Positions 1 through 10,568 of a stretch of 36,759 nt of DNA are shown piece after piece (positions within the stretch are counted from its first letter, which is position 1; every line of letters begins with the position of its first letter). A program made the translations under genes and the position numbers. The notes below the pieces were generated by a model that did not search any database, was not told the DNA's origin, and saw only the letters and a program-made list of their open reading frames with translations. This DNA comes from an uncultured bacterium (GTDB taxonomy: Bacteria > Cyanobacteriota > Vampirovibrionia > Gastranaerophilales > Gastranaerophilaceae): assembly GCA_946636615.1 (NCBI GenBank), contig CAMPBE010000010.1, positions 1 through 36,759 of the forward strand, given 5' to 3'.

Positions 1-265
1 CCTCCATCTCAAACGATACACAATCGTTCTCGCGGAGTCCTTGCCACCAGGGCTTAGTATTTAATTGTCACATGCTCCGGCGGTCTCGGTAGACGGCGTC
101 TACTCTCCCCTCCATCTCAAACGATTAACAATCGTTCTCGCGGAGTCCTTGCCACCAGGGCTTAGTATTTAATTATCACATGCTCCGGCGGTCTCGGTAG
201 ACGGCGTCTACTCTCCCCTCCATCTCAAACGATTAACAATCGTTCTCGCGGAGTCCTTGCCACCA
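1..265. repeat. 108-bp tandem repeat, 2 full copies plus a 49-bp partial copy
   Basis: Units begin at 1, 109 and 217. Copies 1 and 2 differ at three positions, and copies 2 and 3 are identical over the 49 bases that remain. After 265 the third copy decays into AT-rich sequence that still resembles the unit (a 'tcacat' remnant). By my count 56 of 108 bases in the unit are G or C, well above the neighbouring genes. Each unit carries two hairpins, in the first unit GTAGAC/GTCTAC (89-94 with 98-103) and AACGATT/AATCGTT (120-126 with 130-136). No reading frame is open through a unit. There are no unique spacers, so this is not a CRISPR. The array touches the window edge and is probably longer. The function is unknown. 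Confidence 0.9.
74..146. other. Predicted three-way-junction fold within the tandem repeat
   Basis: CTCCG at 75-79 pairs with CGGAG at 141-145, extendable by a G-T wobble at 74/146. It closes over the two inner hairpins at 89-103 and 120-136. The same arrangement recurs 108 bases later (183-187 with 249-253). The second hairpin is one pair longer in copies 2 and 3 than in the junction between earlier bases, because of the two-base change at 18-22 versus 126-130. This suggests a folded RNA or a cruciform DNA element. Which strand is transcribed is not known. Pairings were read by eye, with no energy calculation. Confidence 0.5.
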
Positions 266-312
266 AAGACTAGTGAAATAATAATCACATAGTTATATTA
301 TTATAAACCACA

Positions 313-1530
313 CTAATTGTCAATAAAAATATCTCTTTTAGCTACTTTTAAATATGAATCATATTCCTCCAATTTGGATCTAAAAATAGCTAACATTTGT
401 TCTATTTCATCTTTTAACATTTTTTCATTGTGTAAAGTTGCTCTACCGAACAAAGATGGATAATTTATATTATTCATAAAATCATCCTTAAATTTATTTA
501 TATTATTTAAATCAATCTTATCAATATATTTTGCAACCTCACACAAATCAATGTATAAATCACCTAATTGCGCTTTCGCTTTAAATATTTTTCTTGATTG
601 AATAAATTTTTCAATTTTACTAAGATGTCCTTCAAGTTTTTTATAATACTTTTGCAATTTAAGTTTCTTTTCAACAAGATTTGTCCTAAAATAACATACA
701 GTTTGTTCATAACCAGATTTTATCAAATCATTACGTTTTTCTTCGTTAATATTAAAATCAACAATAACAATATTTCCGGTATTCAAAACAATGTAATCAT
801 ATCTGTCTTTTTGTCCATAAATATCAATTACAAAAGATGTAGAAGATGCCGTCATACAGCTATACACAGCATTAGCGTAATCAATACCTGATATATCATT
901 TGTTTCATAATAGCCCTCAAGCCTAAATTCTATTATTCTGTCAGAACTATTTTTAAGCGATTGTGATAGCTTCCACATTGGCCAACTTTTTTGTAAATCG
1001 CCATCTACCAGCAGTCTATTATTATATTCAATCGGTTTCATTAACCCAGGCATACAACATGAAATTCTAACTGCAGATGCTATCTCAAAATCAGGAGTTT
1101 CATTTTTTGAAAATTCTTTACACTCAAAATTACCCAAATCAGTTGTAATAATAACCAGATCTTTTGAAATATCATTGAAAGTTACAGCTTTATTTGCACC
1201 TTTTTGATAATCCTCACCATAAAATTTCCGTTCAATTAGTTCCCTTATCCAATCAAGAAAAACCTCTCCTTTACTCAGTGCAAAAAAAGGACCAATACCA
1301 AGAGAAATATCCCTAAAGAGATTAAAATTAACTTTAGAAAATATTTGGTTAAGCTCATCTGACGTATAGCCAACAGACAACAGAGCCGCAAATATTGAGC
1401 CTACTGAAGAACCGCCCAAAACAGGTACTTCTACATTTAAATCCTCAAGAGCTTTTATAGCACCTATATAAGAAACTCCCCTTATAGCTCCACCGCCAAA
1501 TAGACAAGTATATGTTAGACTTTTATTCAT
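313..1530 (-). CDS. Patatin-like phospholipase
   Basis: A 405-aa serine lipid hydrolase of the patatin family, predicted to release fatty acids from phospholipids or other acyl lipids. The oxyanion-hole motif GGGAIRG lies at residues 12-18. The nucleophile elbow G-S-S-V-G puts the catalytic Ser at about 42. The catalytic Asp is about D176 in 'VDGD', where the family usually has DGG or DGA. The stretch from about 150 to 178 matches the patatin pattern in which a conserved Pro precedes the DG motif. There is no signal peptide, so it probably acts inside the cell. Residues 290-400 are Lys/Glu-rich and helical, beyond the core, and of unknown role. The start overlaps the end of the upstream membrane-protein gene by 8 bases, which implies translational coupling. 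The gene ends about 47 bases from the tandem repeats. Confidence 0.88.
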   Translation of the reverse strand: MNKSLTYTCLFGGGAIRGVSYIGAIKALEDLNVEVPVLGGSSVGSIFAALLSVGYTSDELNQIFSKVNFNLFRDISLGIGPFFALSKGEVFLDWIRELIERKFYGEDYQKGANKAVTFNDISKDLVIITTDLGNFECKEFSKNETPDFEIASAVRISCCMPGLMKPIEYNNRLLVDGDLQKSWPMWKLSQSLKNSSDRIIEFRLEGYYETNDISGIDYANAVYSCMTASSTSFVIDIYGQKDRYDYIVLNTGNIVIVDFNINEEKRNDLIKSGYEQTVCYFRTNLVEKKLKLQKYYKKLEGHLSKIEKFIQSRKIFKAKAQLGDLYIDLCEVAKYIDKIDLNNINKFKDDFMNNINYPSLFGRATLHNEKMLKDEIEQMLAIFRSKLEEYDSYLKVAKRDIFIDN

Positions 1531-9491: not shown

Positions 9492-10568
9492 TTAATTTGT
9501 ATGCCCTTTATTTGTAGTATTTTTTAAATTATACACGAATAAAAGAATTTCTGCGATTGCTTTGTACAATTCTGGCGGAATCTGCTGGTTTAAATCTACC
9601 ATTTTGTATAATGCCCTCGCGACCGGTGCATTTTCAATAACAGGAATACCATGTTCTCTTGCAATTCCTATTATCTTTTTTGCAATAAGTTCTGTACCTT
9701 TAGCTATAAGCATAGGAGATGCCATTTCCTCTGCCTTATACTTCAAAGCACAAGCAATATGTGTTGGATTTGTAACAACAAAATCTGCATCAGGAACTGC
9801 ATCCATCATACCTCTTTGAAGCATCTGCATACGACGCTGCCTTAATGCAGCCTTTACATTCGGATCACCTTCTGTGTTTTTGTATTCATCTTTAATTTCT
9901 TTAAAAGACATCTTTTGGTCTTTTAAAAATTTCCATTTCGTAACCCCATAATCTGCTGCAGAGATAATCAAAAAGGCAATACAAGCTTTAAAAATAAACT
10001 CCGTTATAAGTTTTCCAAACTCAATCATTACAGCAAAATTGTTGTCTATTGCAGCAAGCATCAATATACTTTCAATATGATCCATGTAAACGCTGTAGCC
10101 AATAAAGCCCAACAATGCAACTTTTACAATATTTTTAAACAATTCAAATAATGTTTTAATCGACATTATATTCTTAAAATATTTTGTAGGATTAAGCTTA
10201 TCAAGCTTTGGGACAAGCGGAGCTGTTGCAACCAACGGTCCTACCTGAATAAAATCAGCTAATATTGCCATAAACCAAGCTATAAATAGAATTGGACCAA
10301 TAATCAAAACCGTACATTTTAATGTAACCGTAACAATATAAGTATTACCGATTCCGTCAAGATGCGCATTTGGAATTTGCTCATATAAAAGAGTATAGAG
10401 CTGAATTATTTGATCCCAAATAAAGGGCGCCAAGCCAAAAATAACAGAAAACAAAACAAGCAATGAAATAGCTGTTGAAAAGTCTTTTGACTTTACAACC
10501 TGACCTTCTTTTCGAGCCTGCTCAAGTTTTCTTGGAGTGGCATCAAATTGTTTATCTTCATCACCCAT
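9492..10568 (-). CDS. flhB: FlhB / type III export switch protein
   Basis: A 358-aa inner-membrane export-gate component of the flagellar or injectisome type III system. The N-terminus 'ATPRKLEQARKEGQV' is the family signature, followed by four membrane spans (about 30-55, 80-110, 145-170, 185-210). The cytoplasmic domain carries the autocleavage site N267-P268-T269-H270, so substrate-specificity switching should be intact. Length and motifs fit FlhB (and SctU); the sigma-28-like neighbour favours the flagellar type. No other flagellar gene is in the window. It has AAGGA about nine bases before the ATG and its own candidate promoter. Confidence 0.92.
   Translation of the reverse strand: MGDEDKQFDATPRKLEQARKEGQVVKSKDFSTAISLLVLFSVIFGLAPFIWDQIIQLYTLLYEQIPNAHLDGIGNTYIVTVTLKCTVLIIGPILFIAWFMAILADFIQVGPLVATAPLVPKLDKLNPTKYFKNIMSIKTLFELFKNIVKVALLGFIGYSVYMDHIESILMLAAIDNNFAVMIEFGKLITEFIFKACIAFLIISAADYGVTKWKFLKDQKMSFKEIKDEYKNTEGDPNVKAALRQRRMQMLQRGMMDAVPDADFVVTNPTHIACALKYKAEEMASPMLIAKGTELIAKKIIGIAREHGIPVIENAPVARALYKMVDLNQQIPPELYKAIAEILLFVYNLKNTTNKGHTN

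Follow-up and report, generated by a model that had tools for sequence, protein, structure and literature searches.

When mobile DNA makes use of tRNA genes, it usually takes the whole gene as its integration site. Tandem repeats are also borne beside such genes: in the E. coli tyrT tRNA operon, the rtT repeats (Rfam RF00391) form downstream units of 100–200 bp, each with a copy of the tRNA 3′ end. In the T-box and other strand-exchange riboswitches, which also occur in tandem copies, a strand can pair within the helix of the leader or, alternatively, with a downstream element, namely a terminator or an mRNA. MITEs are characterized by terminal inverted repeats held in common with an autonomous element and by a target-site duplication. 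Short palindromes dispersed in many copies typify the REP elements, which have been reviewed and catalogued together with the RAYT transposases (PMC3733652): these are imperfect hairpins of about 40 nt with an unpaired GTAG or CGTC tag at the foot, which are dispersed or clustered in tandem with flanking DNA, sometimes inside other palindromes, with RAYT (PF01797) genes near or within copies. Comparable mobile hairpin elements of mitochondrial DNA (RHE or double-hairpin elements) are short, scattered, species-specific repeats with no known function (PMC2800124).

We describe here a repeat array from an uncultured bacterium of the Gastranaerophilales, probably a gut inhabitant to judge by its gene content, located at one end of the 36,759-nucleotide stretch that was analyzed (the window, 1–36,759 of contig C10 in the focal genome G000). 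Its units are probably amplified partial copies of a tRNA in which a dispersed, palindromic, REP/MITE-like element has lodged. The repeat type is broadly familiar; its tRNA-linked form is absent from Rfam and may influence how the adjoining tRNAs are made. TRF detects a single array, at 1–265, with a period of 108, 2.5 copies, 98% matches, no indels and a score of 509, in keeping with the near-identical 108-bp units that a sequence-only reading had noticed. The same holds for its observation that the units are GC-rich (50–54% versus 19–37% in most of the adjoining kilobase) and devoid of a reading frame (nothing notable begins inside the array, the longest frame being 35 codons). That reading's plus-strand view was dropped, since the conserved unit, the promoter and the tRNA all run on the minus strand, which is thus the informative one; the array itself is real but truncated at the contig end. 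Its parts, in the predicted order of transcription, are listed below, where R1 and R2 denote covariance models built from 14 units and from 112 matched units, respectively.

318..323, minus strand: −35 box (TTGACA) of the putative promoter of a transcript through the array, from a consensus scan
295..300, minus strand: −10 box (TAATAT) of the same promoter, from a consensus scan
180..271, minus strand: unit 1, transcribed first (97.1 bits with R1, in whose seed it sits; 78.3 bits with R2; alignment A2), with S1 at 259–271 (diverged, AGTCTTTGGTGGC), core hairpin at 217–258, P3 at 197–211 and P1′ at 182–190
164..179, minus strand: AT-rich boxA-like linker between units 1 and 2, from the sequence, with a second copy at 56–71
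72..163, minus strand: unit 2 (100.2 bits with R1, in whose seed it sits; 80.3 bits with R2), with S1 (AAGCCCTGGTGGC) at 151–163, core at 109–150, P3 at 89–103 and P1′ at 74–82
1..55, minus strand: unit 3, clipped by the contig end to S1 (43–55) and core (1–42), from the TRF array, an R2 match at 2–37 (25.6 bits) and the sequence

Each unit opens with S1, a copy of the 5′ end of tRNA-Leu(UAA) (GCCCTGGTGGC-like), followed by the core, a 42-nt hairpin consisting of AAGGACUCCG, a stem with the apex GAUU..AUC, and GGAGG. The core is not derived from the tRNA; its invariant feet are AAGGACTCC/GGAGG or ACTCTGCC/GAGAGG. Next comes P3, a D-arm-like hairpin with the outline GTAGACG CC GTCTAC, and then the closing strand P1′ (CGCCGGAGC), which is antisense to the tRNA and leads into the AT-rich linker. 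S1 and P1′ form the closing helix of a three-way junction whose other arms are P2 (the core) and P3. We take the linker to resemble boxA; a sequence of this type also stands ahead of the tRNA itself in relatives. The promoter (TTGACA-17-TAATAT) matches the consensus at 10 of 12 positions, and an equivalent one occupies the corresponding position before the first units of three related loci (L004, L006 and L011), as well as before unit-free tRNA-Leu(TAA) genes of the genus. The 3′ end of a patatin-like phospholipase gene (PF01734; 313–1530) overlaps its −35 region.

Since position 1 is the contig end, the array is cut off, and the 2.5 copies in the window would be a lower bound. In the focal genome, tRNA-Leu(TAA) begins two bases from the end of another contig, C53, and carries the same AAGCCCTGGTGGC; on the strength of this common sequence and of the position of the tRNA at a contig end, the array most likely continues into this gene in the genome, the assembly having broken between them. 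Units also lie within about 400 bp of an end on the focal-genome contigs C5, C10, C33, C42, C75 and C76, which suggests that the unit arrays caused the assembly breaks. Arrays that coincide with contig ends in draft genomes are under-assembled and hence under-counted.

The predicted fold of both strands contains the CTCC/GGAG pairing around hairpins that had been proposed from the plus strand, with the minus strand folding better (−32 to −34 kcal/mol, z −2.0 to −2.5). Between copies 1 and 2, one linker base and two neighboring bases of a hairpin apex (AC/TA) have changed. As had been noticed, the apex change alters the pairing: a 3-bp closing stem with a 5-nt loop becomes a 4-bp stem with a 3-nt loop. 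The apex of the unit 3 hairpin is unlike that of the other two. With 14 units in an untrained MAFFT alignment, the share of paired cells is 93.3% (86.0 when shuffled, 37.6–52.6 when slid), compensatory double changes occur at 11 of 30 pairs (6.3 when shuffled) and the covariation score is 0.281 (0.153 when shuffled). Across 102 distinct units, double changes are seen at 28 of 30 pairs and the score is 0.417 versus 0.135, these values coming from a model-fitted alignment, which favors structure. Even within a single genome, one core-stem pair has changed from C-G to T-A between two tandem units (L004), the pairing being compensated. Thus, the pairing is backed by compensatory changes and the three-way junction of the sequence-only reading is maintained; its refutation by copies that freely break the pairings was looked into and did not materialize, the pairing being kept. 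Nevertheless, paired changes in quasi-palindromes can also come from DNA-level template-switch correction, and covariation within palindromic repeats does not by itself prove an RNA function.

In relatives, one to three such units lie directly upstream of tRNA genes, on the same strand and 14–46 nt away. The first case found was tRNA-Leu(TAA), and units were then seen at tRNA-Leu, -Pro, -Thr, -Val, -Met, -Lys and -Ile, in each case copied from the neighboring tRNA. S1 corresponds to the opening 11–12 bases of the adjoining tRNA, P3 repeats the D-arm of that tRNA, and the strand after P3 is antisense to it. Sixty loci drawn from the R1 matches were examined for neighboring tRNAs, and the isotypes with units upstream in this set are Leu (TAA, CAA, TAG, GAG, CAG), Pro (TGG, GGG, CGG), Thr (GGT), Val (GAC) and Met (CAT); Ile and Lys come from beyond it. 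The covariance search over relatives that had been suggested recovered R1 matches in 129 of 288 family genomes. Of the 286 genomes sampled from the order, 231 (in 36 of 50 genera) gave R2 matches, up to 61 in one genome (G077), and in a 386-genome sample of the phylum R2 found no match beyond the order. The core is shown to be a hairpin element dispersed through a single bacterial order. Copies of many tRNA ends harbor it, at D-loop, T-loop or anticodon-region positions and either upstream of the intact gene or, mirrored, downstream; it is found in unrelated palindromes as well.

The sequence-only reading had left the choice between a structured RNA array and a mobile structured DNA element, and had missed that the units are partial tRNA copies. 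The evidence leans to an element acting at the DNA level, which is favored by several observations. First, the 5′ ends of the units match their own tRNA: S1 scores 19.9 against it and 9.4 against other isotypes (80 of 81 units). Second, there are mirror-image downstream arrays, partly beyond the terminator, made of tRNA 3′-end copies with the core on the opposite strand: in genome G206, those of tRNA-Leu(CAA) consist of its 3′ acceptor end, terminator and antisense T-arm, while those of tRNA-Met repeat the 3′ two-thirds of that tRNA and have the core at the anticodon. Third, core copies lie away from tRNAs inside other palindromes, as on contigs C52 and C20 of the focal genome, at three near-identical sites in G206 and, as eight near-identical copies, in G075; cores within unrelated palindromes are also found in G046, in other families of the order and, close to a tRNA, on contig C5 of the focal genome. 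Fourth, 21 of the 28 complete orthologous tRNA-Leu(TAA) loci of the genus are empty and seven have one or two units, with an upstream sequence common to all; here the core is present or absent among species, and the tRNA is intact throughout. Fifth, the core stems group by genome (0.698 versus 0.579 overall; 18 of 5000 permutations as high) and not by tRNA (0.577; 2558 of 5000 as high). Finally, a Y1/RAYT transposase module is nested exactly within the apical loop of a core in G141 (L244:1210–2110), beside an uninterrupted copy of the unit, and a core lies within 1.5 kb of a RAYT at seven of about 30 loci, about one being expected.

Hence, we propose that the core would spread at the DNA level as a REP/MITE-like hairpin that is non-autonomous and inserts into the loops of hairpins. 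Whenever it inserts, a copy of a tRNA end and of the leader may be left behind, frequently together with a second copy of the segment in inverted (antisense) orientation, and unequal recombination could then enlarge the array. At the locus studied here, 5′-end partial copies of tRNA-Leu(UAA) would have been amplified in tandem with the 42-nt core where the D-loop would be. Upstream arrays, being located between the promoter and the tRNA, would be transcribed, might adopt the three-way-junction fold and could delay or modulate the maturation of the downstream tRNA.

Some findings count against the DNA-level element. The three-way junction has many compensatory changes, beyond what neutral decay would keep, and RAYT genes are present in just 85 of the 231 core-bearing genomes, with none found in a search of the focal genome. 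Their genome-wide association with the core is weak (core in 85 of 98 RAYT-positive versus 146 of 188 RAYT-negative genomes, p = 0.08). Moreover, RAYT modules come with their own REP, distinct from the core and of the GTAGGTTGGG type; given this and the limited set of genomes with a RAYT, these enzymes may merely use core hairpins as landing sites. We accordingly do not claim the RAYT as the mobilizing enzyme, although the nesting and the proximity are real. Neither an autonomous element ending in the core nor a recent transposition event between strains was found.

The arrangement of the units could also be interpreted as a cis-acting RNA switch, in which the antisense 3′ strand would pair either with the tRNA-like 5′ strand of the unit, leaving the tRNA free, or with the real tRNA, thereby blocking it; the tRNA would be the expression platform, and the core would bind the deciding ligand or protein. 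We regard such a tRNA-sequestering switch as possible but rather unlikely, and less likely than the dispersed palindromic element. It derives support from the antisense match of the unit tail to its own tRNA, with a mean score of 20.8, whereas other isotypes give 11.1 and shuffled tails 10.1 (75 of 81 units); in genome G009 the match extends to 17 of 17 bases. Even so, the antisense part is absent from Thr units (10.0 versus 10.2 shuffled) and weak in Pro-CGG and Leu-CAG units. The antisense positions that pair solely with the tRNA vary, being 59–100% conserved in Leu units, a range that neither proves nor rules against a switch. In a minimum-energy calculation that leaves aside kinetics and tRNA modification, the tRNA loses its acceptor stem in 55 of 60 loci when folded with the last unit, and for most Leu(TAA) units the joint fold lies 10–22 kcal/mol below the separate folds; this result is, however, expected from any inverted copy of a tRNA end. 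A test of which partner P1 prefers, its own strand or the tRNA, was discarded as circular, the fold itself picking the partner. The compensatory pairing, the promoter upstream and the tRNA downstream would all suit a switch, but units are missing from most orthologous tRNA-Leu(TAA) loci, downstream arrays have the core on the wrong strand, and the core occurs in palindromes with no tRNA at all. The broader proposal that tRNA leaders throughout the order form a class whose hairpin receptor would control the antisense strand and so set the levels of Leu, Pro, Thr, Val, Met, Lys and Ile tRNAs, likewise appears unlikely to us.

Still less probable is a reading of the unit as a small RNA, stable and structured, which would be processed out of the pre-tRNA and act in trans in a manner comparable to the rtT RNA of the tyrT operon. 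The conserved 90-nt fold, arranged in tandem inside a tRNA transcript, would accord with it, as would the acceptor strand of a tRNA at the start of each unit and the matching 3′ strand that closes it, but its presence among tRNA-Leu(TAA) loci is patchy, its sequence fits the neighboring tRNA rather than any common target, and copies exist outside transcribed leaders. That a tRNA leader was duplicated in tandem by chance or by a purely mechanical process, with no specific element involved, would explain near-identical units whose number varies among genomes, but is very improbable as it is contradicted by a common core, not derived from the tRNA, that recurs at unrelated loci across the order and is restricted to it within the phylum sample.

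Returning to the dispersed palindromic element, it shares the hairpin size, dispersal, tandem clustering, nesting in palindromes and RAYT proximity of the REP/RAYT systems (PMC3733652). Unlike them, the core has no unpaired GTAG or CGTC tag, GTAG being confined to the tRNA-derived P3 stem of the unit, and instead has the conserved feet AAGGACUCC/GGAGG or ACUCUGCC/GAGAGG; in tRNA-rich genomes its copies lie mostly within partial tRNA copies, the local RAYT has a separate REP, and most core-bearing genomes lack a detectable RAYT. It also departs from MITEs, as its outer inverted repeats are host-derived (from the tRNA or a local palindrome) and differ per site, and the repeated leader and tRNA end are far longer than the usual target duplication. 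Like the rtT repeats, the units stand in tandem by a tRNA, each holding a tRNA-end copy, but they are mostly upstream with 5′-end copies, span many isotypes and have a common hairpin core and an antisense strand. The mitochondrial hairpin elements (PMC2800124) are similarly short and scattered, whereas the core is borne on a bacterial chromosome and placed specifically in tRNA-end copies. In comparison with T-boxes and other riboswitches, the downstream element here is a tRNA, the unit has no known ligand, and it is dispensable in most relatives.

Database searches concur with the view of the sequence-only reading that this is no known family: Rfam yields nothing besides tRNA over the window at the gathering score, and cmscan of six loci up to E = 5 returns only tRNA and weak chance matches, with no rtT, riboswitch or T-box. 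A known Rfam family was therefore set aside as its identity. A phage or plasmid origin was likewise dropped, as no similar DNA was found among 50,697 phage and 72,556 plasmid records. A short-pattern scan of genome contigs gave 24 matches in unrelated taxa, which were taken as chance.

In the present case, a tiny hairpin repeat goes together with partial copies of tRNAs, which are often inverted and stand in tandem by many different tRNAs across a whole bacterial order, and the tRNAs survive. If the element moves, it would show how a palindrome spreads through the loops of tRNAs. Should the transcribed arrays influence tRNA maturation, a possibility raised by the folding competition, individual tRNAs would be tuned by copy number.

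Some further observations were made in the course of this analysis. At 9492–10568, the window codes for an FlhB/YscU-like export protein, as judged by reading its translation, with no obvious flagellar neighbor in the window. In G075, repeats of about 98 bp, six of which were aligned (L177, L184, L190, L195, L200 and L205), are near-identical, with several at contig ends, and have the core inside a TTAGTTTTCTTAAAATCGG palindrome; G075 belongs to another family of the order, in which these repeats have expanded recently. A different tandem repeat (184 bp, 2.5 copies, 98%) lies immediately downstream of a tRNA-Leu(TAA) at L010:1775–2239 and, much like the rtT repeats, contains the tRNA 3′ end and the terminator. 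Finally, at L236:860–1060, a core unit precedes tRNA-Pro and has a second long hairpin (GAATTTTGC...GCAAAATTC) nested in the internal bulge of its core.
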